Assembly (NCBI GenBank): GCA_004377185.1
Contig: SOIM01000047.1
Coordinates: forward strand, 1-64,000
Reading direction: 5' to 3'
Length of the DNA: 64,000 nucleotides
From: Methanomassiliicoccales archaeon
GTDB lineage: Archaea > Thermoplasmatota > Thermoplasmata > RBG-16-68-12 > SOIM01
The notes beneath the pieces were generated by a model. That model did not search any database and had not been told where the DNA came from. It worked only from the letters and a program-made list of their open reading frames with translations. Each line of letters begins with the position of its first letter. Positions within the stretch are counted from its first letter, which is position 1. The position numbers were made by a program, and so were the translations under genes. This document shows positions 4,752 to 23,485 of the stretch, piece by piece.

Positions 4752-5306
4752 ATGACGGAACATGATGACATTCCTTGGGCAACATTCCGTCCGAAACAAG
4801 AGATCACGTTCTTCAGAAGACCGCGGACGTCTAGAAGGATATCCCTTAGACCTAGCTCACCGAATGTCAAGTTATCTCCCAATGCGGCTGCTAAGCTTCT
4901 GCAATTGTATTTTAGAGAGGTATCGGAGAGGCAGACGTCTTCCCCTATTGCCGATGAAAGGAGACCTAGAAAAGCACTCAAGCGTGTGCCAAAAAGACCT
5001 CTCGTGGACGAGGGAAACCTAACAGAGGAATATCCGAGGGTCCAAGAAAGAATTCAAAAGAGACAGGACATCTCGACAGTGAAGGAAACCGAAGGCAGTG
5101 TCAGCATTGCCGGGGACATTGCAGCCAGGTCTGAACATGGGAGGATCAGTACGACACGTCTCCGCAGGCTCGTTATGGCGCGGCTTCCCCCGTCATCCGT
5201 TCTGAGGGAGGTTCTTCTGGCAGAGAGCGAGAAACTCTCGGTGGAAGAGTTCCTGGCCAAGTTGGATATCTGGCTGCTCCTTTTCAGGAAGGATGCCGAA
5301 GGATGA
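4752..5306 (+). CDS. Unknown small protein paired with an integrase (VLREV family)
   Basis: 184 residues with no family I can name. Near residues 35-50 there is KLSPNAAAKLLQLYF. The middle is charged, low in complexity and probably disordered. The C-terminal ~45 residues form a helical block, SSVLREVLLAESEKLSVEEF followed by an AKLDIWLLLF-like end. The same two blocks occur in the 170-residue protein at 18363, and the end of the C-terminal block is preserved as a fragment at 23172. The gene converges on the integrase with a 23 bp overlap. Its repeated association with the integrase suggests it belongs to the same mobile module, as an excision, partner or cargo protein. That role is inference. 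Confidence 0.7.
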   Translation: MTEHDDIPWATFRPKQEITFFRRPRTSRRISLRPSSPNVKLSPNAAAKLLQLYFREVSERQTSSPIADERRPRKALKRVPKRPLVDEGNLTEEYPRVQERIQKRQDISTVKETEGSVSIAGDIAARSEHGRISTTRLRRLVMARLPPSSVLREVLLAESEKLSVEEFLAKLDIWLLLFRKDAEG

Positions 5307-6576
5307 CCTTGTTATTGGGCAAGGCTGTCACGAATTCCCATCCTTCGGCCACATACCTTTCAATATTGTCCATCCCTATGACCCTCTGATGGCAGTTGTT
5401 GTTTGCCTTCGTACCCAGCAAATGCTCCCGGATGATTTCTCTCAGCTTTTCCTCTGACATCTCCCATAGCGAGTCCTTCTCTATTTCCTCGTCAGTGAAG
5501 CCAGCCATTCGGAGAAGTTCCGAGCGGAACATTCGCTTCAGGTCTTCTTCCTTGGGACCTTCTGGCACCTTCGTCTGGAGAAACTCCTGGCCCTTGCCGT
5601 ACGCCTCTCTCATATCCTCAATTACCTGGGCTGGCAATCTGCCTTTGTTCGTGGTGTACCTGTGCTCAATGTCACCTACGTGCCCCATCCAGAACGTCCG
5701 GTAGTCGCGCAGGACGTACCCTTTTGATTCTGCGAGCATCAGCTGCGTGTCGAAATAGGAACGCAGCACATAGGGCCGCCATTGGAATCCGGCACTCCTC
5801 ATGGCTCCTCTTATTGCATGAGAAACCTTGGTGGTTGATATGAAAGGCTTTCTGGCGGTCTTTGGTGTAAGAATGGGAGAATCCTTGCTCAGCTTCTCTC
5901 CGTCGCGCAGTCTCTCCTCAAGGTAGTCCTTCAGATACTCGCAGCCCTCTTCAGAGAGGAACGAGAAATATTTGTGGCCAGCCTTGCTCAGCTCATGCCT
6001 GACCACGACCATGGCGGGGACACTCTCAAAAATGACAGATCCGTCCTCTATCTTCATCTCTGGAATGTCTCCAACAACAAGTCCATCGTCTCCTGTGTAG
6101 CTCCCAAGTGTCTGTATTCTCAGTCCTGTATGTGCCAGGAGAGTGCACGCCACCCTGGCCTTCTTGTCACCAGAAAGGAAGATCCTCTTGAGCTCCTGTG
6201 GAGTCGGGACTCTCTCGTCCTTCAGTGTCGGATGAATCCCAGAGTCTCTGACCTTGATCTTCTTCTTTATCATCTTGTCGTTGTGGCTCAGCCACGACCT
6301 GAGAGCCTTGAGTATCGATGTGATGTACGAGCCCGTCAATCCCCTGTTCTCGAGCTCGGTTACGTAATCCAAAAGAATCCCGTAGATCTCTTTCTCCGAC
6401 TTCGCGGCAAACTTGCTTGGGTTCGTGCCCAAACTCTGACAGAAGTTCCCCAATCGACGTAGATAAACATCAGCAGTTACAACTGAACCTCTCGCCACGT
6501 TGTTGTACCAACGTTTGACCTCTTTGTCTTTGAGAAGGGTCTTGTAGGCACTCCCTCTTCCCTTTTGATTCGTCAT
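5284..6576 (-). CDS. Tyrosine recombinase (integrase) next to tRNA-Arg
   Basis: About 430 residues. An N-terminal SAM-like helical domain (about 20-110) precedes the catalytic domain. Visible active-site elements are Arg153 in HTGLRIQTLGS, Arg272 in YVLRSYFDT (the usual His of HxxR is Tyr), His299 in MGHVGDIEHRYT and the nucleophile Tyr307. A C-terminal extension ends NIERYVAEGWEFV...VILRHP, and this tail recurs as a relic at 23200-23295. A TATA-like AATATAAG at 6598-6606 puts transcription near 6577, so I take ATG 6576 as a leaderless start rather than ATG 6621. The gene begins about 50 bases from the 3' end of tRNA-Arg(TCG), as in elements that integrate into tRNA genes. Confidence 0.9.
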   Translation of the reverse strand: MTNQKGRGSAYKTLLKDKEVKRWYNNVARGSVVTADVYLRRLGNFCQSLGTNPSKFAAKSEKEIYGILLDYVTELENRGLTGSYITSILKALRSWLSHNDKMIKKKIKVRDSGIHPTLKDERVPTPQELKRIFLSGDKKARVACTLLAHTGLRIQTLGSYTGDDGLVVGDIPEMKIEDGSVIFESVPAMVVVRHELSKAGHKYFSFLSEEGCEYLKDYLEERLRDGEKLSKDSPILTPKTARKPFISTTKVSHAIRGAMRSAGFQWRPYVLRSYFDTQLMLAESKGYVLRDYRTFWMGHVGDIEHRYTTNKGRLPAQVIEDMREAYGKGQEFLQTKVPEGPKEEDLKRMFRSELLRMAGFTDEEIEKDSLWEMSEEKLREIIREHLLGTKANNNCHQRVIGMDNIERYVAEGWEFVTALPNNKVILRHPS

Positions 6577-6627
6577 AATGGGGTAATCTACACGCTTCAA
6601 TATAAGGGTTTCGTACCCCATTTAGTA

Positions 6628-6702
6628 CGGGCCCAGTGGGATTCGAACCCACGATCTCTTGGTCCGAAGCCAAGCGCCCTATCCTGGCTAGGCAATGGGC
6701 CC
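6628..6702 (-). tRNA. tRNA-Arg (anticodon TCG)
   Basis: The cloverleaf is complete: acceptor GGGCCCA with TGGGCCC, anticodon loop CTTCGGA with TCG at 34-36 (reads CGA), T-loop TTCGAAT, discriminator G, no encoded CCA. It lies downstream of argS on the same strand and next to the integrase. Confidence 0.95.
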
Positions 6703-6759
6703 ACTCTGACAAAATCCCAAAAGACATGAAAGAATTTAATATCGACTGCGTTTCCGAAA

Positions 6760-8601
6760 CTACATCCTCTCCGGCGATTCTATTCCCAGCAGCGCCAGGC
6801 AATTCCTCAACGTTTGCTTTGTGGCTTTCACCATGGCAATTCTAGAGTTCTTGATGTCCTCACTCTCCGCTGTCAATACCGGCGAGGAATGATAGAACTC
6901 TGTGAACAGCGTTGCAAGTCTGTACGCATATTCGGGAAGCATGTGAGGTCTTCGGGTCTCTGCTACGGTCAGCACTATCGATGGGAAGTGAGAGATCAAC
7001 CTGGTCAGATTCTTCTCAGATTCGTTCGTGAACACGATCCTCTCCGGTATCGGTCCGTCTTCAGGAATACCTCCCTTTCTGAGGATACTGCACGCCCTTG
7101 CATGGGCATACTGCACGTACGGGGCGGCATCCCCTTCGAAATCCAACGCCTCATCCCAAGAGAAGGTGAACGGTTTCATTGCCTGCACTTTCAACATGTG
7201 GTACTTGATCGCGCCAATGGCAACCTGTCTGGCGATCTCTGCAACCTTCTCGTCATCCAGTTCTTCGTTCCTTTTCCTTACCTCTTCCTCGGCCTTCTCG
7301 ATTCCTTCGTCCATAAGTTCGTCAACAGATACGATTACTCCCTTTCTGGTGGACAGACTGCGCCCCTCTACCCCCACAAATGCATAGTGAGCCACTTCCA
7401 GAAGTTCATCGCTCTTCAGATCGCCAAGCAACTTCAGGAGAGTCTTGAGTTCCTTGAACTCCACCTTGTGGTCCTCGCCCAGCACGATCACGTTCCTATC
7501 CGCCTGCCCCAGCTTCCACCTGTGGTAAGCGGTGTCTCTGACGATGTAGACCGAAGTGCCGTTCGGCCTTTGGAATACCGTGCCCCCCCCTCTTCTTGCC
7601 AGGCCAAATTCGGACAGATCAACAGCGTGAGCGCCGCTATCCAGCGTCAAGGATTGAGGAAGCTTCTTCAAGTCACTAATTGCCTTCTGGGCCGAACCAT
7701 CCAGGACGAAGTCACTCTCAAGGTCGAAGCTGTCGAAATTGATGCCCAGTCTCTCTAGAGTTTCCTTTTGACCTGTCAGAACGTCATCCACGACCTTCTT
7801 CAGTTTCTCAATGGACTCCTTGTCCCCTTCCTCACATCTCTCTGCCAGTTCATCGATTTCTGCGTCCAGGCCCTGCTCCTCGATCAGTTTTGTAGTTGGA
7901 ACATATGTGAAGAACACTTTGAAGTCCGTTTTCTCAGCGTATTTCTGGTACCTGCTCACCAATTCGTTCTTTGGAGGCCCTTCTGCCTTCTCCAGCTTCG
8001 GCTCTCCACGCTCGTCAAAGCTCAGCGAGTAGTTCTCCGCAACTTTGTTCTCAATCCCCCAAGCTATCGTCGCGACCTGTCTCCCCATGTCGTCCACGTA
8101 GAAATGAGTCTCAACGCCCCATCCCACTGCCTTGCTGAGTCTGGCCAATGCATCTCCGATAAGTGAATTTCTTACACGGCCCACATTGATAGGCCCTGTC
8201 GGGTTGATGGATGAATGCTCCAAGAGCAACTTCTCTCCTTTGTAACGGTCCGATTTCCCGTAATTGTCTTTCGACGAGAGAACGTCCTTTATCACACTGG
8301 TCCCGAATACCGGGAAGTCCAGGAAGAAATCGAGATAGTGCATTCCCCTTGCTTCCAGGATTTCGACCTTCTCCACGATCTCGGGCTTCTCGAATTTTAG
8401 GAGAAGAGCGTCCGCAACCTCTTTCTGCGACTTGCCAGTTGCCCTTGCCAGTTCAAAGCATATGCTGCTGGAGAACTCTCCGAACTTGGGGTTAGTCTGA
8501 ATCTCAACAGGAATATCTTCTTCTTCCTTCGAGATCTGGAACGCGGTCTGCACCGCCTTGGCAAGCGCTCTTCTGATTTCTCGTCTGATGTCCTCTATCA
8601 T
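6760..8601 (-). CDS. argS: Arginyl-tRNA synthetase
   Basis: 613 residues, class Ia; charges tRNA-Arg with arginine using ATP in the cytoplasm. An Arg-tRNA-synthetase N-terminal domain (about 1-90) precedes the HIGH-type signature NPTGPINVGRVRNS (about 133-147). The KMSKS-type signature is LSTRKG at about residue 420. The C-terminal DALR anticodon-binding domain ends CLALLGIESPERM. The ATG at 8601 is only 15 bases from tRNA-Arg(TCT), and tRNA-Arg(TCG) lies 57 bases past the stop. All three are on one strand, so the enzyme and two of its substrates may share a transcript. Confidence 0.97.
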   Translation of the reverse strand: MIEDIRREIRRALAKAVQTAFQISKEEEDIPVEIQTNPKFGEFSSSICFELARATGKSQKEVADALLLKFEKPEIVEKVEILEARGMHYLDFFLDFPVFGTSVIKDVLSSKDNYGKSDRYKGEKLLLEHSSINPTGPINVGRVRNSLIGDALARLSKAVGWGVETHFYVDDMGRQVATIAWGIENKVAENYSLSFDERGEPKLEKAEGPPKNELVSRYQKYAEKTDFKVFFTYVPTTKLIEEQGLDAEIDELAERCEEGDKESIEKLKKVVDDVLTGQKETLERLGINFDSFDLESDFVLDGSAQKAISDLKKLPQSLTLDSGAHAVDLSEFGLARRGGGTVFQRPNGTSVYIVRDTAYHRWKLGQADRNVIVLGEDHKVEFKELKTLLKLLGDLKSDELLEVAHYAFVGVEGRSLSTRKGVIVSVDELMDEGIEKAEEEVRKRNEELDDEKVAEIARQVAIGAIKYHMLKVQAMKPFTFSWDEALDFEGDAAPYVQYAHARACSILRKGGIPEDGPIPERIVFTNESEKNLTRLISHFPSIVLTVAETRRPHMLPEYAYRLATLFTEFYHSSPVLTAESEDIKNSRIAMVKATKQTLRNCLALLGIESPERM

Positions 8602-8616
8602 TTACCCCACTGTCAG

Positions 8617-8691
8617 CGGACTCGCGGGGATTCGAACCCCGGATCACCAGCTTAGAAGGCTGGCGCCATATCCAGACTAGGCCACGAGCCC
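8617..8691 (-). tRNA. tRNA-Arg (anticodon TCT)
   Basis: Acceptor GGGCTCG pairs with CGAGTCC. The anticodon arm CCAGC-CTTCTAA-GCTGG gives TCT (reads AGA). T-loop TTCGAAT, discriminator G. It starts about 26 bases from a TATA-like element (8712-8725), where an archaeal tRNA promoter is expected, and is followed closely by argS. Confidence 0.95.
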
Positions 8692-8709
8692 AGAACCAAG
8701 TTATGTTCA

Positions 8710-8726
8710 GAAGATATAATAATCTT
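8710..8726. promoter_or_regulatory. Shared bidirectional TATA region (tRNA-Arg/argS and speA)
   Basis: AGATATAATAATCT reads as a TATA-like element on both strands. Reverse, 26 bases downstream is the first base of tRNA-Arg(TCT). Forward, the start would be near 8744, with speA ATG at 8761. Based on motif and spacing. Confidence 0.5.
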
Positions 8727-8760
8727 ATCTTTGCGGGGGTTGAGGTCTGATGTTTGAGCG

Positions 8761-10710
8761 ATGACAACAGCCAAACAAAGCTTTAAGTCTGGAAAAAACC
8801 TTTTTCTTCACGTGATTCAAGGATGGAAAGCGGAGGACTCCTTGGAATTGTATGGAGTTCAGAGGTGGGGATCAGGCTATTTTGACGTGGATGGAGAGGG
8901 TAACCTCTTGGTCCGCCCTTACAAGAAGGATTCACAGGCAGCAAGTCTTAAAGCCATTGTGGATGAACTGGTGAAGAAGAAGATTGGATTTCCAGTGCTG
9001 CTGAGATTCCCCCAGATACTTGAGGACAGGGTCGGTGAGCTTCATTCCTTCTTCAACAAGGCGATCACCGAGTTCGAGTACGGGGGGAAGTACCAGGCTG
9101 TGTTTCCCATCAAGGTCAACCAAAGGAAGGAAGTGGTTCAGGAATTGCTTAGGGCGGGAGAAGAACACGACTACGGGCTGGAGATCGGGAGCAAATCCGA
9201 GTTGTTGGCCGCCCTGGCCCTGGATCCCAAACTCTCCTCTCTGCTGGTCTGCAACGGGTTCAAGGACGAGAGCTTCATGCAGCTGGCCTTCGACGCTTCT
9301 CATGTGAAAGAAAAGCTGTTTGTGATTTTGGATGAGGTGGAGGAGCTTCCTCTACTGATCGAACAGGCCAAAGCGAAGGGTCACATGCCCCTTCTCGGCA
9401 TTAGGATTAAGCTGTACATGCGCGGTGCTGGAAGATGGATCTCCTCGGGCGGGGAACTGGCCAAGTTCGGTTTGTCTGGTTCAGATACTCTTCAGATCAT
9501 GGAGACCTTGGAGAGAGAAGGCTATCTGGACAGGCTGAAGATGCTGCACTTCCACATAGGTTCCCAGATCACCCACATAAAGAGGATCCAAGATGCGATC
9601 AGAGAAGCGGCCAGGATGTATGCCGAGCTCGCCCATTTGGGACTGAGGACGGACTACCTGAATGTCGGTGGAGGCTTGGGAATCGACTATGACGGAAGCA
9701 AGAGCGTGAGCGACTCCAGCATGAACTACACCCTGGAAGAGTACGCCAACAATGTCGTTTACGGGATCAAGCTGGTCTGTGAAGAGGAGGATGTGCCGCC
9801 ACCCACCATCGTATCAGAAAGCGGAAGGGCGGTCACAGCTCACCATTCCGTACTGGTCTTCAACGTGAAAGGGGAAATGCATGCGGACTATGACCCTGAG
9901 AGCATCCAGATCACGGAGGACGACCCGAACTTATTGTTCGAGCTGAGGGATGGGTATGTAGGTGTCAACAAGAAGAACTACGTGGAATACTATCATGACG
10001 CCCTCACTCTGAAGGAAGACCTTGTCAACATGTTCAACCTCGGACAACTGGACCTGAAGGAGAAGGCAAGGGGAGAGGTACTTTTCAAAGGAATCTGCGA
10101 GAAGGTTGCCAAGTTCGCCAAGAACACTGGAAACAGGTCGGATGAGTTCGAGGAACTGAAGAAGACGGTTGCACGGAGGTACATCTGCAACTTCTCCGTT
10201 TTCCAATCTCTGCCAGATTACTGGGGGGTCGGCCAGCTCTTCCCGGTCTTGCCCATTCACAGACTGAACGAATCACCTGACCAGTACGGAACCTTGTTGG
10301 ATGCCACTTGTGACTCGGACGGAGAGATTAACACGTTCATCGACCTCAGGGACATGAAGGAGGTTCTGGAACTTCATCCTCTCACTGGGGATCCGTACTA
10401 CATCGGTATCTTCCTTTTGGGCGCCTACCAAGACACGCTGGGCGACTTCCACAATCTCTTCGGCTCGGTGAACGAAGCGCACATTTATCTGGAAGAGAAC
10501 GGGGACTGGAACATTAGGCATGTGATTAAGGGTTCAACAGTCGGTGAGGTCCTCAAGCTGTTCAAGTATGACCGCGAGTGGATGACGGACGCTTTCAAGA
10601 AACTGGTGGAGAAGGTCACCAAAACGGGAAAAGTCGAGGAGAAGGAAGCCAAGAAGATCCTTCAGGACTACGAGAAGGAAGTGGAGGAGTACACTTATCT
10701 GAAGTTGTAG
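8761..10710 (+). CDS. speA: Biosynthetic arginine decarboxylase (SpeA type)
   Basis: 649 residues, the usual length for SpeA. It is a PLP fold-type III enzyme that converts arginine to agmatine, the first step to polyamines. The PLP lysine is in VFPIKVNQRKE (about Lys118). Other markers are HFHIGSQ (about 262), SESGRA (about 360) and the CDSDG active-site motif near 516. The N-terminus has the SpeA extension with YGVQRWGSGYFDV. Archaea more often use pyruvoyl or AdoMetDC-derived arginine decarboxylases, so transfer from bacteria is plausible. It is divergent from the tRNA-Arg/argS unit. The next 20 bases hold a decayed tRNA 3' end. Confidence 0.95.
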   Translation: MTTAKQSFKSGKNLFLHVIQGWKAEDSLELYGVQRWGSGYFDVDGEGNLLVRPYKKDSQAASLKAIVDELVKKKIGFPVLLRFPQILEDRVGELHSFFNKAITEFEYGGKYQAVFPIKVNQRKEVVQELLRAGEEHDYGLEIGSKSELLAALALDPKLSSLLVCNGFKDESFMQLAFDASHVKEKLFVILDEVEELPLLIEQAKAKGHMPLLGIRIKLYMRGAGRWISSGGELAKFGLSGSDTLQIMETLEREGYLDRLKMLHFHIGSQITHIKRIQDAIREAARMYAELAHLGLRTDYLNVGGGLGIDYDGSKSVSDSSMNYTLEEYANNVVYGIKLVCEEEDVPPPTIVSESGRAVTAHHSVLVFNVKGEMHADYDPESIQITEDDPNLLFELRDGYVGVNKKNYVEYYHDALTLKEDLVNMFNLGQLDLKEKARGEVLFKGICEKVAKFAKNTGNRSDEFEELKKTVARRYICNFSVFQSLPDYWGVGQLFPVLPIHRLNESPDQYGTLLDATCDSDGEINTFIDLRDMKEVLELHPLTGDPYYIGIFLLGAYQDTLGDFHNLFGSVNEAHIYLEENGDWNIRHVIKGSTVGEVLKLFKYDREWMTDAFKKLVEKVTKTGKVEEKEAKKILQDYEKEVEEYTYLKL

Positions 10711-10714
10711 TACA

Positions 10715-10733
10715 GGCCCGGCAAGGTTCGAAC
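10715..10733 (-). repeat. Decayed tRNA 3' end, copy 1
   Basis: GGCCCGGCAAGGTTCGAAC on the + strand matches the 3' end of tRNA-Arg(CCT) at 23307-23326 (GGGCCCGGCGAGATTCGAAC) apart from a few bases. It lies immediately after speA. I read it as an old attachment-site copy. Nothing else tRNA-like surrounds it. Confidence 0.5.
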
Positions 10734-13871: not shown

Positions 13872-14348
13872 ATTCCTCCCCAACTCGGATAAGTTAGTTA
13901 AATCCCGGTTAATAAGTCTTGTGGATGCGCCCCAGTGTTGGACTGTCAAGCTGAATGGCCTGACTGGAGCGGATATTCGTTCTGATGCACCAATAACAAA
14001 GGAACATCCAACCACCTCGGTGCAGAAGTTGCGAATGGGGTTTCAGCCAGTGGAGATTGGACGGGCCTGGCGATATTCGAACCGGTTTGGGCTAGGAACC
14101 ACCATCGAAACAGCCTCCTCGGTTCCAACACCTTCTCGAATTGGGCCTAACGAGGCTCAGTGCATGCAACACTCTTGCTCACTCTATCGCCAGGGAACAT
14201 CGTCTGCAAGAGTGCCCAGACTCTGTTTGTCCTTCTGAAAATGGTCGGGTGGCCGCTGCAGTTCTCGTCCTTGTTCCGAACCAATCGACACGTCCGCAGG
14301 ATTCTATTGGTGAACTCTCAAAACCCTGATTCCTCTTCCCTCTCCTCT
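13872..14348. other. Gene-free stretch holding tRNA-like fragment 2
   Basis: No credible frame on either strand. The only structure I see is the promoter side of the beta-helix gene (AT-rich around 13890-13915) and the tRNA 3'-end fragment at 14061. Confidence 0.5.
14061..14083 (-). repeat. Decayed tRNA 3' end, copy 2
   Basis: ACGGGCCTGGCGATATTCGA followed by ACC matches 23306-23328 of tRNA-Arg(CCT) in nearly every position and has the same orientation. The rest of the cloverleaf is not recognisable. Confidence 0.55.
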
Positions 14349-15443: not shown

Positions 15444-15761
15444 ATTCTTGTCTCCCCATATATCGAACTATTGTATCATGCCGAGTTGTTGCATAGATTC
15501 GGTTCCATGAATATCATTGCGAGACATTCCATTCCCATACTCTCAGGCGGGATGGGATGTGCTCCCGGAGAGGGAAAAGACGTGCAAAGAGAAAAACCTG
15601 TCGCAAGGATGGACCATGGAATGATCCTAGGATTGGCATGCCCACTGTGACAGCTTTCGCCTCCAGTCACGCAGTCTTCCATCAACTCCACCTTTACCGC
15701 TTTCTGAGTTGGCAGACGGGCCTGGCGAGATCCGCATCACTCATCACTGCAGAGGAGTCAC
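15444..15761. other. Gene-free stretch holding tRNA-like fragment 3
   Basis: No credible gene. It contains the fragment at 15716 and otherwise unremarkable sequence. Confidence 0.5.
15716..15738 (-). repeat. Decayed tRNA 3' end, copy 3
   Basis: ACGGGCCTGGCGAGATCCGC aligns with 23306-23325, with changes in the T-loop part. Same orientation as the other copies. Confidence 0.45.
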
Positions 15762-16097
15762 TCATGTTGCCATCTTGGAGCGGACCTCCACGCCAGTCCT
15801 GACCGCCTCTCCGACTATCGACAACTCATTCGACCTTCTCCTGAGTTCCTCCGGCGTGAGGCAGATGGCTTCGAGGTCAAGCGGGATGTCCCAGATTCGG
15901 ATAACCATCGGAGCTCTCTTGATCCAGGGGATGCCACGGAATTTCCTGGAGACAATGATCAAGTCGAAGTCGCTTGTCTCCTTGTGCTCACCGCGGGCTC
16001 TGCTCCCGAAAAGGATGACGCGCCTAGGCTGAAGCTCATGCTCCATCCGCGCAAGGAAGCGATTGAAAGCTCTCTTCAGCGAAGTCGGTTTCGACAT
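15762..16097 (-). CDS. Minimal nucleotidyltransferase (MNT), orphan
   Basis: 111 residues from ATG 16097 (a GTG at 16121 is also possible). The MNT/polymerase-beta signature is clear: VILFGSRARGEHKETSDFDL, with the paired DxD metal ligands and a further Asp in IPLDLEAIC. In known HEPN-MNT systems such proteins AMPylate and silence a HEPN toxin. No HEPN gene adjoins this one, so its partner was lost or is the HEPN gene at 16980. It sits between tRNA-like fragments 3 and 4. Confidence 0.8.
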   Translation of the reverse strand: MSKPTSLKRAFNRFLARMEHELQPRRVILFGSRARGEHKETSDFDLIIVSRKFRGIPWIKRAPMVIRIWDIPLDLEAICLTPEELRRRSNELSIVGEAVRTGVEVRSKMAT

Positions 16098-16260
16098 TGT
16101 GTGAGTACCTTCTTTGTCCACCGAAGGAATCGGAGCAACCGCGGGTTGTGACAGACTGACCTTTTTGTGCCCTGTGAACGAAAGGACCTCCCTGCTATTT
16201 CAAGGTTGCTGGCTGCCAGGGTTTATGGATCTGAGGCAATGACATTATCTGTGTATCTGA

Positions 16261-16283
16261 ACGGGCCCGGCGATAATCGAACG
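16261..16283 (-). repeat. Decayed tRNA 3' end, copy 4
   Basis: ACGGGCCCGGCGATAATCGA followed by AC is the closest of the four relics to tRNA-Arg(CCT) 23306-23327, with about two mismatches. Confidence 0.6.
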
Positions 16284-16461: not shown

Positions 16462-16983
16462 ATGTATCAGGAATGGAACAGATACAAGATTCTGATGGCT
16501 TTCTTTGATGAGCCGAACAGGAAGTGGCAACTTAGGCAGTTGGAAAGGAAGGTGGGCATAGGTTTACCATCGGTAAAGAACCATGTGGAGGCGCTACTCA
16601 AGGAAGGTCTTCTCAAAGTTGAGGAGGGAGGTTCCTACAGAGGTTACAGAGCATCAATGAGCGAGATGTTCAGAACATATAAGTCGAGCAATCTGCTCGC
16701 GAGGTTGAGGTCCGGTGGTCTTGTCAAGGAGTTGGAGGAGAGATGCACGCCTAATTGTATCGTTCTCTATGGCAGTGGGGCTGATGGAAGGGACGACGAA
16801 AGAGGTGACATCGACATCTTCGTGGAGAGCAAAGAGAAGAAGATAGACTTGGGGCGGTACGAGAGGGAGTTGCACAGAACCATAAGCCTGCTGTTTGAGC
16901 CTGACGCAAGGAAACTCAACCATGAGTTGAGGAACACAATTGCCAACGGCATCGTGCTCAGTGGGTTCCTGAGGGTCGTATGA
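16462..16983 (+). CDS. Winged-HTH fused to nucleotidyltransferase (antitoxin)
   Basis: 173 residues. Residues about 8-65 are a winged helix (WQLRQLERKVGIGLPSVKNH, recognition helix and wing). Residues about 90-165 are an MNT domain with IVLYGSGADGRDDERGDIDI, including the DxD pair. The stop overlaps the HEPN gene start by 4 bases, so the two are translationally coupled. By family knowledge the pair is a toxin-antitoxin or stress module, with the MNT protein neutralising the HEPN RNase, possibly by AMPylation. The HTH would let it repress its own promoter. Confidence 0.8.
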   Translation: MYQEWNRYKILMAFFDEPNRKWQLRQLERKVGIGLPSVKNHVEALLKEGLLKVEEGGSYRGYRASMSEMFRTYKSSNLLARLRSGGLVKELEERCTPNCIVLYGSGADGRDDERGDIDIFVESKEKKIDLGRYERELHRTISLLFEPDARKLNHELRNTIANGIVLSGFLRVV

Positions 16984-17414
16984 TGGATTGGACAGAATGC
17001 ATAGATCACGGCAAAGTGAAAGAGGTCAAGAAGAACCCAGAACAGGCCAGATCCTTGGTCGAACTTGCCAAGAGGAGACTTGAATCCGTAGAAAAGAGGA
17101 AGGACTATGAGTATCCCCAGCTGTTGATTGAAGACTATTACGAGACCATAAAGGAACTCGTGAGCGCTCTGACAGCCATTCACGGATACAAGAGCTACAG
17201 TCATGAGTGCCTCATATCTTTCATCAGACAGTTCCACCCCAATACCCTGGCCTCGTCCCAACTGCGCTTCTTGGATGATTTGAGGAAACTGCGGAGTGAT
17301 ATCCTGTATAGAGGTAGAGAGATCGCTGAGGATTACCTCAATCGAAACTCATCGGAGATTGAACGAATCCTAGAGCTCTTGTTCGAGAAGGTTGATGAAG
17401 TGATTGGAGGGTAA
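16980..17414 (+). CDS. HEPN-domain protein (putative toxin)
   Basis: 144 residues, all-helical, of the HEPN type that accompanies HTH-nucleotidyltransferases. The family motif RX4-6H lies in the last third. Here the stretch is LRKLRSDILYRGREI, with Tyr where His is usual, so RNase activity may be altered or the motif may be read differently. It is coupled to 16462 by a 4 bp overlap. No other gene follows in the same direction until 18157. Confidence 0.75.
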   Translation: MMDWTECIDHGKVKEVKKNPEQARSLVELAKRRLESVEKRKDYEYPQLLIEDYYETIKELVSALTAIHGYKSYSHECLISFIRQFHPNTLASSQLRFLDDLRKLRSDILYRGREIAEDYLNRNSSEIERILELLFEKVDEVIGG

Positions 17415-18362: not shown

Positions 18363-18875
18363 TTGGCTCATGCCTCATACGCTCTCTTCCCACCGTTCTC
18401 CGCTTTGTGTTCAAAAACTCTCTTGCTCACTAGTGTCAAAGTCTTGGTGAGCCCTGATGCCGCAGCTAGGCTTCTCAGTTTGAGTTCTGGAACGACTTCT
18501 CGTGCAGAGACATCCTTGCTTGCTGTCAGGAGGAACATCGTCAGAAAACCACGCAGGGGCGTTCCTATTGTTTTTGCTCAGAAGGAAGCGTATCAGACTG
18601 AGGAATCTCATGAGATGGAAGTGAGAAGGCAAGCAAGACCCATGCTGCGAGAGAAGACCGAGGTGCGGGACACGTCCGACTTCGTGGATGCCGCGCCCAT
18701 CAAGCAAGAGGACACAAAGGTAAGCACAGAAGGTCTGCGCCGTTTCGTTCTGGAGAAGCTGCCTGAGAAATCAGTTCTGAGAGAGGTCATCCTCTCGGAA
18801 AAGGAGGAGCTGACGGCTGAGGAGTTCATAGCGAAGATGGAGGTTTGGCTGTTTCTTTTCAACCGCGAGAATTGA
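18363..18875 (+). CDS. VLREV-family protein, second copy (no integrase partner)
   Basis: 170 residues, paralogous to 4752. The shared blocks are VSPDAAARLLSL near residues 30-42 and the C-terminal block KSVLREVILSEKEELTAEEF followed by AKMEVWLFLFN. The central ~80 residues are poorly conserved and probably disordered. At 4752 an integrase converges on the gene; here that position holds a PKD surface protein, so the module is incomplete. The start is uncertain: the first ~20 residues are hydrophobic and unlike the paralog, so a later start is possible. Confidence 0.65.
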   Translation: MAHASYALFPPFSALCSKTLLLTSVKVLVSPDAAARLLSLSSGTTSRAETSLLAVRRNIVRKPRRGVPIVFAQKEAYQTEESHEMEVRRQARPMLREKTEVRDTSDFVDAAPIKQEDTKVSTEGLRRFVLEKLPEKSVLREVILSEKEELTAEEFIAKMEVWLFLFNREN

Positions 18876-18912: not shown

Positions 18913-20694
18913 TCAAATAGTCAGTATGTAAGAAACCTGCGCCATTCCGCCGTCATCATCCTTGACAGTGACAGTAATCGTGAAGGTCCCGCTACCCGGG
19001 AAGGCGTGGGTGACCGTATCGACGATTGTCACTGGGTAGCTGCCGTTTGGATTGGGGTAGATGTTGGTGACGTTCGTACCGTCCCCGAAGTCCCAGTGGA
19101 ACGTCAGGTCGTCCGCGCCAGGGTCATGGGCAGTGGCTTCGAATGTCAATCCGTGGGAGAGTATGGTTGCAGTCAGGTCCACTTCCCAGATGTGTGTCTC
19201 CGGATGCTGTACGTTGAAGGTGTGGTGGATCCAAACCTCTTCTTGGTCATCGAACTTGAGTACTATCCAGCATGGGTTCGCTCCGTTGGGTTGTCCGTTG
19301 ACCGGGTCGTCCTCGGGAGTGTAGCGGACGATTGCCGAGTATCTTCTTGAGATGTTCACGCTGAGGTGTGTGAGGTCGAGCATTTGATCATTTGGACTTC
19401 CTGGATATCTTGTGAGGGAGCCTTCTGCTATGAGTACGTCATCTTCATGGAGTTCTATCGAGACGTCATGCCATTTCTCGCCGGCTGTTCTTAAAAGCAC
19501 TGTTCCTTCCACTGGGAGGACGTTGATGCTTACCGATGGCGGAACATTCAATACCAGAATCTCCAAGGTCTTATTGGCAACCCCTCCATCGTCATCTATG
19601 ATCGTGAGTGTCAGTTCGTATAGTCCATCGTCTTTGAAAATGTGGGTTACGTCTTCCACAACTTCGAACGGAAAGGTTCCCCAAGGGCTCTCTGGAGGAT
19701 CGGGGTCATTCTCATCGTTGAAATGAGTGGTTTGTCTCTGGAAACCATCACTGAACTGCCATATTAACGTCAGGTCGTCGCTTCCCGGGTCGGTGACCAT
19801 TGCTGAACAATAAACGGGATTCCCTTCGTCGATTTCAGCATCGCAATCAACTTCCAAACTCGGAGACACATTCTCGATTTCTATCGGAATCTCATAGGTC
19901 TGGATCTCATCCTCACAGGCATAGAGGGCGAATCTCAAATCTCCGTCCACCTCCTCAACCCACGGTTTCTGTTTGTACTGCCACCAATTGGTCCCGTTGT
20001 TGTAGGAATCTTCGGATATGTGGATCTCGTAGTTCCCTCCAGCATTCATCATACTTGTCACGACCAGATAGTAGGTTTCCCCTTGAACTAAGGAGACATC
20101 AGGGAAATCGAAGACGGGCCATTTATCAAACGGGATAAACCTCGGCTCTGGAATGTTTTCGACTGGAACACTTGCATTGGTCAGGTCTGGACCTTCGAGT
20201 TCCTTTCGAATGTGAACATCGACACCCGCATTTGGTCGACCCCAATTTATCGAGATGTCAACTTTTACCTTGCATATCTGTGAGTGAACGGGAGTGAAGG
20301 ACTGAGCATTGCTATGGTTCATGTTCACAATCGCGAACCACTTTCCATCTCCATCAGCTTTGATATCAACAATCTCTTCTTTATGAGACGTTTGCAGGGA
20401 AAGTTTCCCTTTGTGGTCGTCGCCCCATACGTGACTTTCTATCGGATCAGCAGTCCAAGCTGTGTCCCAATTGCCATCTCCGTCGAAATCCCATCGATAG
20501 CCTTCAGCTGGTGTATGAGGGTCTCTAAGGCTTTCAGCGTCCAACACTACAGGGCTTCCTTCTGTTCCTATTATGATATCTCCATCGGGAGAGTTCTCGC
20601 CACCATGCAAAGCAAAGAAAGCAGTGGATAACATTAAGAATAAGATTCCCCACGATGTGCACTTCATGGTGAAGATAGATTGAGGTTTCATCAT
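18913..20694 (-). CDS. Secreted PKD-domain protein
   Basis: About 593 residues from ATG 20694, which has GGGAGGGG upstream. Signal peptide at about 10-35. PKD-like beta-sandwich domains are recognisable by YRWDFDGDGNWDTAW (residues ~60-80), LTLIWQFSDGFQRQTTHF, the middle IDDDGGVANKTLEI and the final DLTFHWDFGDGTNVTN with VTVKDDDGGMAQVS. Between the first two lies a jelly-roll-like part (VHIRKELEGPDL, QGETYYLVVTS) like carbohydrate-binding folds. No C-terminal anchor is present, so it is released or held by other means. Confidence 0.75.
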   Translation of the reverse strand: MMKPQSIFTMKCTSWGILFLMLSTAFFALHGGENSPDGDIIIGTEGSPVVLDAESLRDPHTPAEGYRWDFDGDGNWDTAWTADPIESHVWGDDHKGKLSLQTSHKEEIVDIKADGDGKWFAIVNMNHSNAQSFTPVHSQICKVKVDISINWGRPNAGVDVHIRKELEGPDLTNASVPVENIPEPRFIPFDKWPVFDFPDVSLVQGETYYLVVTSMMNAGGNYEIHISEDSYNNGTNWWQYKQKPWVEEVDGDLRFALYACEDEIQTYEIPIEIENVSPSLEVDCDAEIDEGNPVYCSAMVTDPGSDDLTLIWQFSDGFQRQTTHFNDENDPDPPESPWGTFPFEVVEDVTHIFKDDGLYELTLTIIDDDGGVANKTLEILVLNVPPSVSINVLPVEGTVLLRTAGEKWHDVSIELHEDDVLIAEGSLTRYPGSPNDQMLDLTHLSVNISRRYSAIVRYTPEDDPVNGQPNGANPCWIVLKFDDQEEVWIHHTFNVQHPETHIWEVDLTATILSHGLTFEATAHDPGADDLTFHWDFGDGTNVTNIYPNPNGSYPVTIVDTVTHAFPGSGTFTITVTVKDDDGGMAQVSYILTI

Positions 20695-20774
20695 TCTCCA
20701 GCTCCCCTCCCTTTCCAATCCTCCATTTGCTGTATCGAACTAGAACACTATAAAACTTCTCAATGGCCTAGCTA

Positions 20775-21059
20775 CTACCCACTCTCCTTCCTCAAAACCT
20801 CTCTGATGTTCGCGGTAGCCACCTCTATACCCTCGGTAAGCTTGTCCACGCCCTGCGTGCTCATCGCCACCAGCATGGCCTTCTTTCCTAATCCAACTGC
20901 AACCAGGTTACCAGCATCCGACTCCTCCACCACCCTCCTCGGGGGCTCCTTGTTCAGGCCGGTGTACACGACCTCGGACGCACCCAGAAGCGTGGCGGAC
21001 AGTGTCGCGAAGGTCTCTACATGTACGTCCCTGGGAAGGTAGCAACTACAGGAGCTCAA
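20775..21059 (-). pseudogene. Roadblock/LC7 domain protein, N-terminally truncated
   Basis: Reading from 21059 the frame encodes LPRDVHVETFATLSATLLGA, EVVYTGLNKEPPRRVVEESD and VAVGLGKKAMLVAM. This is the second half and more of a Roadblock/LC7 domain, a family that regulates small GTPases. The first ~40 residues of the domain are missing; hicA ends in their place (overlap 14 bases). Alternatively it is a functional short form using TTG 21059. Confidence 0.6.
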
Positions 21060-21273
21060 GGAATTCTTCTATGGTCAGCTCAGCATCCTTGATGATGTGC
21101 GAAAGCGTACCCTTTTTCAATGTCGAATGTAATGGTATGGTCAACTTGATGGTGCCCTCCTTCGTCCTTTTCTTCAAACGAACGTGGGAACCTCTCTGGC
21201 GGACAACCAGAAAGCCCGCCTTCCTGAGTGCTTTTATCGCCTCCCTTCCAGATATGGAGGGAAGCTTGGTCAT
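21046..21273 (-). CDS. hicA: HicA mRNA interferase toxin
   Basis: 75 residues, the normal HicA size, with a dsRBD-like fold. The signature GREAIKALRKAGFLVVRQRG precedes SHVRLKK, and the His in GSH is the catalytic residue known in the family. It starts at 21273, overlapping the 3' end of hicB by 4 bases. The order antitoxin-then-toxin is one of the two known for HicAB. It degrades translated mRNA unless bound by HicB. Confidence 0.9.
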   Translation of the reverse strand: MTKLPSISGREAIKALRKAGFLVVRQRGSHVRLKKRTKEGTIKLTIPLHSTLKKGTLSHIIKDAELTIEEFLELL

Positions 21274-21473
21274 ACGACTATCTCCACAATCTTCCCTTCA
21301 GAATACTCGATGAGATCGTCCTCGTCCGGTTCCAGGTACAGTTCTATCGCTTCCTTGATGTTGTCCAGAGCCTCCTCATGCGTCTCGCCCTGGGAGATGC
21401 AACCGGGGAGGGAAGGAACGTACACGGTATAGCCACCTTCTTCCTGGGGCTCCAGAACTACCTTTATCTTCAT
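21270..21473 (-). CDS. hicB: HicB antitoxin
   Basis: 67 residues from ATG 21473, with GGGAGAA upstream. A TATA-like element at about 21497-21512 fits this start. HicB RNase H-like fold: VVLEPQEEGGYTVYVPSLPG, CISQGETHEEALDNIKEAIE. It is a short form without an added HTH or RHH domain. Coupled to hicA. Confidence 0.9.
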   Translation of the reverse strand: MKIKVVLEPQEEGGYTVYVPSLPGCISQGETHEEALDNIKEAIELYLEPDEDDLIEYSEGKIVEIVV

Positions 21474-21552
21474 GATTCTCCCCTTTTTGTATGGGTATTC
21501 ATCCATATATATCTATGTCGCTGTGATTGTAAGTTTGGCCACACTCAACATT

Positions 21553-23171: not shown

Positions 23172-23295
23172 TTGTTCAAGAAGGATGTCGGAGAATGACC
23201 TTGTTGTTTCGCAAAGCGGTGACGAATTCCCATCCTTCGGCCACGTACCTCTCTATCCCTCCATCTCCACCACTCTCTGGTGAGAGTTGTCATTT
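23172..23295. pseudogene. Relic of the VLREV-protein/integrase module beside tRNA-Arg
   Basis: At 23172-23198 the + strand encodes LFKKDVGE-stop, matching the LFRKDAEG end of the 4752 protein. On the reverse strand 23291-23200 encodes HQRVVEMEGIERYVAEGWEF, then VTALRNNKVILRHP, matching the last ~34 residues of the integrase at 5284. The convergent overlap is the same as at 5284-5306. The rest of both genes is gone. The relic ends about 10 bases from the tRNA-Arg(CCT) 3' end. Confidence 0.85.
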
Positions 23296-23305
23296 GAATA
23301 ATATA

Positions 23306-23380
23306 CGGGCCCGGCGAGATTCGAACTCGCGATCCACGGCTTAGGAAGCCGTTGCCTTATCCAGACTAGGCCACGAGCCC
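23306..23380 (-). tRNA. tRNA-Arg (anticodon CCT)
   Basis: Acceptor GGGCTCG pairs with CGGGCCC (two G-U-type pairs). The anticodon arm ACGGC-TTCCTAA-GCCGT gives CCT (reads AGG). T-loop TTCGAAT, discriminator G. Its 3' end is the template of the four relics at 10715-16283. Confidence 0.95.
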
Positions 23381-23485
23381 ATGTTTTGGACGCAGACCAG
23401 TCTAAGGAAATCTTTCTATTAATACCCTTTCTTGAAAGAGATTATATATCAGGCAAGCCAATTCCCACCTGTCCAACAGGAGTGC

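Follow-up and report, generated by a model that had tools for sequence, protein, structure and literature searches.

A tRNA-targeting integrase and its convergent partner VLREV as a candidate integration module of archaeal mobile elements

An intact integrase–VLREV pair at tRNA-Arg(TCG)

The DNA considered here, called the window throughout, is a stretch of 64,000 nucleotides from a Methanomassiliicoccales archaeon (GCA_004377185.1, contig SOIM01000047.1, positions 1 to 64,000). Near its start, a tRNA-Arg(TCG) gene identified by ARAGORN (6627–6703, minus strand) is followed, after a gap of 6 nt, by an intact open reading frame of 445 codons (5284–6621, minus strand) that encodes a 445-aa tyrosine recombinase with a pNOB8-type signature, recognised through Pfam, PHROG, a XerA model, alignment, and an AF2 model. 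The likely start codon, as alignment with relatives suggests, is the ATG at 6576. The gene for a 184-aa protein termed VLREV (4752–5306, plus strand) runs towards the integrase gene, and the stop ends of the two overlap by 23 nt (5284–5306). An earlier note, made from the sequence alone, had described an intact convergent pair beside this tRNA, and both reading frames and the tRNA gene were found where it had placed them.

In the predicted structure of VLREV, a conserved C-terminal domain of ~50 aa, here called the C-block (5145–5303, plus strand), forms two short strands and three helices at a pLDDT of about 97; residues 43–62 form a helix, and the remainder, including a basic middle, is of low confidence. 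VLREV had no match in Pfam, PHROGs, NCBIfam, or PADLOC and none of note among PDB sequences. The best Foldseek matches for the C-block, EF-hand and MDM2 folds, had E > 1 and were rejected, while Z scores in VIA-align were at most 3.0 and a recognisable DNA-binding or Xis-like match was absent from both searches; we therefore claim no fold for the C-block.

The region from 6627 to 10710 is an arginine-related cluster kept in family f1, the kinship group that includes this genome, and comprises two tRNA-Arg genes, an arginyl-tRNA synthetase gene, and an arginine-decarboxylase-like gene that, on our own reading, we take to be speA; a third tRNA-Arg gene lies at 23305. One relative (G002) retains the order tRNA-Arg(TCG), argS, tRNA-Arg(TCT), speA, RibD, tRNA-Arg(CCT) and carries neither integrase nor VLREV at tRNA-Arg(TCG), so the intact module is probably an insertion of more recent date. 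The 3′ end of tRNA-Arg(TCG) is the attL of this module, and its far att is unseen because the window begins at the contig end, 4.7 kb away; none was found in the available sequence. In G002, the gene that follows tRNA-Arg(TCG) was considered as a marker of the far end and rejected, since its paralogs in the window's own genome reach only 33% identity.

Layered insertions at tRNA-Arg(CCT)

A second, older integration hot spot is tRNA-Arg(CCT) (23305–23381, minus strand), beside which an integrase relic (23176–23298, minus strand) retains residues 406–445 only and is 87% identical over residues 416–445. The same kind of element struck two different tRNA-Arg genes, as had been proposed, with the intact module at TCG and the relic and displaced ends at CCT. 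The relic had been described as a remnant of the whole convergent junction: its integrase tail is real, but the VLREV part is no more than 8 terminal codons, shared with the integrase gene in the overlap, and similarity fades past the integrase stop.

Four stand-alone 22-nt copies of the tRNA-Arg(CCT) 3′ end, overlooked in the earlier note, lie on one strand (minus) and all downstream of the tRNA. The copy at 16261–16282 (2 mismatches of 22) is the distal end of segment 1; that at 15716–15737 (4 mismatches) belongs to segment 2, 545 bp long with one nucleotidyltransferase gene; that at 14061–14082 (2 mismatches) is the distal end of a RibD-like segment; and that at 10712–10733 (3 mismatches), 2 nt after speA, is the outer end of the array. 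When a 23-nt pattern of this 3′ end was searched across the whole 2.64-Mb genome with up to 3 mismatches, matches occurred in this stretch only, a reversed control gave 0, and by our estimate fewer than 0.01 such copies would be expected by chance. Displaced 3′ ends mark the far side of tRNA-integrated elements, so the four copies point to an old and repeatedly used site, and the likeliest reading of the 12.6 kb from tRNA-Arg(CCT) to speA is accretion through at least four insertions.

A VLREV paralog at 18363–18875 (plus strand; 170 aa, 36% identical to VLREV, with a C-block match) had been taken to stand alone. It is indeed a paralog, but its position is inside segment 1, which runs from tRNA-Arg(CCT) to the displaced copy at 16261 and carries the integrase tail at its tRNA end; the gene is therefore best taken as the VLREV of that decayed element. 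Displaced ends also occur beside the RibD-like gene at the syntenic place in two relatives of another genus in the same family, and the window copy at 14061 has a counterpart in G002 with the common flank CCACTGGCTGAA. The hot spot is therefore older than the split of these genera.

Genes of the accretion include a HEPN and nucleotidyltransferase pair (16462–17414; a PDC-M05-like PADLOC candidate), a lone nucleotidyltransferase (15762–16121), and, at 21046–21506, adjacent overlapping small reading frames that resemble a HicA/HicB toxin–antitoxin pair by eye only. PKD-repeat surface proteins that resemble one another in their C-terminal stretches are encoded near an integrase or VLREV copy both in the window (18913–20718, contig C19) and on contig C17 (L011:15421–18393), possibly as shared cargo.

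The integrase family and a paired motif at its target sites

The catalytic residues R168, K213, Y284-x-x-R287, H314, and Y322 are invariant in an alignment of 20 homologs and give the R, K, R, H, and Y of a tyrosine recombinase (Phage_integrase fold) in order; a box RPYVxR, which reads RPYVLR in the window copy, is invariant too. Profile matches were to PF00589 (3e-5), phrog_1 (1.8e-8), and the XerA model (3.4e-9, but with 36.7 bits against a family cut-off of 220), and the integron integrase model TIGR02249 scored 13.8 bits against a cut-off of 265. The AF2 model resembles archaeal XerA (4a8e and 5hxy, the closest solved fold; E 2e-7) and other tyrosine recombinases. In contrast to XerA itself, which it matches weakly and far under the family cut-off, the window integrase lies at tRNA genes and has a long C-terminal extension of roughly 100 residues beyond the catalytic Tyr.

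The signature R...YxxR...Y characterises pNOB8-type archaeal integrases (PMC8371274). The window integrase carries it in place of KxxR, and its gene remains whole after integration beside a tRNA, likewise in relatives, features that rule out an SSV-type integrase and liken it to pNOB8-type (type II) integrases by signature and layout rather than by direct sequence comparison. Unlike pNOB8-type integrases, this family occurs in Thermoplasmata and other archaea rather than in Sulfolobales, and it is further set apart by its C-terminal extension, by a T-arm-like repeat at +32, and by its C-block partner.

Nearly all of the evidence on the family's spread comes from draft genomes, mostly metagenome-assembled genomes (MAGs). 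Integrase homologs were present in 50 of 389 sampled Thermoplasmatota genomes, and they extend beyond Thermoplasmata to MAGs named Bathyarchaeota, Pacearchaeota, Thaumarchaeota, and Archaeoglobaceae. Wherever a tRNA was recognised, it lay directly upstream of the integrase in the same orientation, and these tRNAs were of the Arg, Lys, Pro, Ala, Val, Met, Leu, and Gly types; the 68% paralogue on contig C17 is at tRNA-Pro. The module is thus recurrent beside tRNA genes, as the earlier note had it, but its restriction to tRNA-Arg did not hold, given the seven other types. For the Lys, Pro, and Ala elements, no far att was found in the sequence examined (within ~6–12 kb for Lys and Ala). No relatives of the integrase were found in a phage collection (50,697 records) or a plasmid collection (72,556 records), so the elements are largely undescribed with respect to those searched; viral contigs scanned with the integrase pattern also yielded nothing. 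A 1.87-kb recombinase insertion at tRNA-Thr of Caldiarchaeum (PMC3293823) is comparable in its small size, its displaced tRNA fragment, and its several copies per genome, and differs in that it displaces a 5′ tRNA fragment, has a recombinase reading frame of 813 bp, and is reported without a C-block.

Comparison of genome families shows that the integrase moves horizontally: it is 80% identical between family f1 and a second kinship group, f4, while the ArgRS of the same families is 39% identical, a resemblance that, at the level of sequence, indicates recent transfer. Among f4 species, dS is 0.05–0.07 for the integrase vs 0.10–0.33 for leuS.

Alignment of the DNA downstream of the tRNAs revealed a paired motif. 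In the window, the T-arm motif GGTTCGAATCC within tRNA-Arg(TCG) (6639–6649, minus strand) is followed by a second T-arm-like 11-mer (6607–6617, minus strand) at exactly +32 nt, and most integrase loci have such a second copy exactly 32 nt on in direct orientation, reading GGTACGAAACC in the window, GGTTCAGAACC at tRNA-Pro, and TAATCGAATAC in a third kinship group, f10, which we guess to be Methanomethylophilaceae. At offset 32, identities averaged 6.64 of 11 across 25 de-duplicated loci, against 4.0 for the highest of 500 shuffles; 10 control tRNAs averaged 4.7 at this offset, a set that is not clean because some may hide undetected relics. The +32 motif may be an integrase-binding or crossover-positioning site.

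The C-block family and its possible role

Searched as a profile, the C-terminal ~50 residues of VLREV pick up small proteins of 60–80 aa as well as longer ones of up to 237 aa. By our count, 16 of the 22 confident matches in Thermoplasmatota genomes have an integrase of the window family within 6 kb, which we estimate as an enrichment of ~25-fold or more (16/22 vs roughly 3% of a genome), and C-block genes also lie near integrases in MAGs named Bathyarchaeota (L040) and "archaeon" (L041). This distribution, with many copies beside tRNAs, is the opposite of the one that the earlier note had named as speaking against a module, namely homologs mostly away from integrases and tRNAs. Convergent orientation with overlap of the C-block and integrase genes is seen in the Arg element of the window, the Lys elements of three f4 species, Ala elements (L030, L032, and L044), and L110, while in many f10 elements at tRNA-Ala the C-block gene lies downstream of the integrase and is co-directional. 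The association is not obligatory, since VLREV or a C-block was undetected at most other integrase loci (e.g., that of the tRNA-Pro paralogue on C17) and a few C-block genes have no integrase near them (on contigs C54 and C56 of the window's own genome, and two in G001).

VLREV is modular, with a constant C-terminal part and a variable N-terminal part. Comparison of the three f4 species gives 98% identity for the integrase and 98–100% for the final quarter of VLREV, yet mostly 50–80% for the first 200–300 nt of VLREV, which form the lowest windows of a 13.5-kb syntenic alignment that averages 93%; in the G011/G012 pair, the first ~300 nt are 57–77% identical within such a stretch, and between L062 (8505–8800) and L063 the N-terminal half is the most divergent part of the 13.5 kb. 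In relatives, dN/dS is 0–0.28 in the C-terminal part, indicating purifying selection, and values below 1 mark VLREV as a real and constrained protein. In the divergent N-terminal part, dS reaches 0.62–0.99 (vs 0.05–0.07 for the integrase and 0.10–0.33 for leuS), which makes exchange with divergent alleles more likely than selection alone, and these comparisons suggest that the N-terminal half diverged through allele exchange inside the gene. The f10 genomes show a like pattern across genes, the C-block gene being constant and the winged-helix gene that precedes it being of at least three unrelated-looking kinds.

Several neighbourhoods of C-block genes deserve description in their own right. 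At tRNA-Ala in f10 genomes (L096–L103 and L107), a conserved string of genes encodes an integrase, a variable winged-helix/Zn protein, a C-block protein, a ~120-aa protein whose C-terminus is near-identical between genomes, and a ~135-aa multi-TM protein, the last two without Pfam or PHROG assignment; this string looks like an undescribed small mobile element. A Cys-rich protein of ~500 aa and no known family is encoded beside VLREV in Lys elements and beside a C-block gene in G001 (L061:311–1879, L062:6851–8368, and L105:6605–7987). On contig C56 (L006:1249–1668), an RHH/CopG-like reading frame of 64 aa precedes a C-block frame of 74 aa, the stop of the first adjoining the start of the second. 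On a 3.4-kb contig (L013, G000:C22), which may be a plasmid piece or MAG contamination, the N-terminal part of an f4-like VLREV is accompanied by a fragment of a tyrosine recombinase and by a 409-aa protein.

Our preferred reading, to which we give a probability of roughly 55%, is that the pair is the module by which a family of horizontally spreading archaeal elements integrates, and that VLREV most likely serves the recombinase as an accessory or directionality factor. The pNOB8-type recombinase would join a circular element into the T-arm and 3′ end of a tRNA gene; a tRNA 3′ end supplied by the element would keep the tRNA whole, the integrase gene would land directly downstream, behind the +32 motif, and the original 3′ end would be shifted to the far side of the element. 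At tRNA-Arg(CCT), insertion would have recurred and the elements decayed, so that four displaced 3′ ends remain along with a VLREV gene and the tail of one integrase. VLREV would pair a constant C-block, travelling with and touching the integrase, with a variable basic or DNA-binding part, fused to it or encoded beside it, that touches DNA; it would thereby act on excision or integration, the convergent 3′ overlap would allow opposed expression of the two genes, and the module may be active at present.

The co-localisation of the C-block fits what is looked for in an accessory factor: a small protein that different elements encode alongside the integrase. As reviewed in 2021 (PMC8371274), a directionality factor is not needed by any characterised archaeal integrase, and the only known modulators of such an enzyme are Orf2 and Orf3 of SNJ2, a coiled-coil and a MarR-like protein encoded in the integrase operon that raise recombination (PMC8371274). 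We count the first of these points against the preferred reading, together with the missing fold match of the C-block, the integrase loci at which no C-block was detected, the C-block genes far from integrases, and the failure to find a far att in the sequence examined. The window resembles that operon in joining an integrase with a small helical protein, and the winged-helix gene that precedes the C-block gene in f10 elements offers a further parallel to the SNJ2 helpers. Unlike the window pair with its convergent overlap, the SNJ2 operon is co-directional and belongs to a haloarchaeal virus, and Orf2 is likened to the C-block by description only.

The main rival, which we hold possible at odds well short of even, is that the C-block protein maintains or regulates the element, as a copy-number factor, repressor, or addiction partner, and lies beside the integrase as both belong to the conserved core. 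The RHH/CopG-like frame directly before the C-block gene on C56, the f10 arrangement in which the C-block gene overlaps that of the conserved ~120-aa protein and is followed by the multi-TM protein, and the C-block copies with no integrase nearby all agree with such a role. Yet the partner that recurs across lineages, several times in convergent 3′ overlap, is the integrase, while RHH, winged-helix, and Cys-rich neighbours vary, and no toxin, antitoxin, or replication family was matched with Pfam, PHROGs, NCBIfam, or PADLOC.

We consider it improbable that tRNA-Arg(CCT) is instead an integron-like platform, where an integrase acting in trans gathers single-gene cassettes bounded by tRNA 3′-end sites. 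Such a platform would account for the short segments between displaced ends (545 bp, 1.7 kb, and 3.3 kb), which hold a single gene apiece and lack an integrase, and integron and XerA integrase models do match weakly; but an informal look revealed no attC-like sites, the RibD-like segment is common to other genera and hence marks the array as old rather than as a reassorting cassette set, the other tRNA–integrase loci searched yielded no comparable series of displaced ends, and the successive decay of full elements gives the same pattern. That the overlap is accidental, VLREV being an ordinary element gene that ends at the integrase end and is functionally unrelated, would suit the many integrases of the family with no detectable C-block gene and is very improbable given the estimated enrichment near integrases and the independent arrangements and convergent overlaps in several lineages.

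New here are the C-block family and the T-arm-like 11-mer at +32 nt. We would tentatively go further and propose that C-block proteins may be a class of factors for recombination directionality or targeting, the first to be recognised in archaea. A constant integrase-binding domain would be combined with exchangeable DNA-binding parts, which in VLREV would be the basic tail and in other elements a winged-helix or RHH partner, and would work on a two-motif att with fixed 32-bp spacing, in tRNA-targeting elements that cross archaeal phyla. For such elements, displaced tRNA ends put successive insertions at one tRNA in order, and the +32 motif predicts the recombination site. The C-block, which accompanies one integrase family in several archaeal lineages, is a concrete and testable candidate helper.
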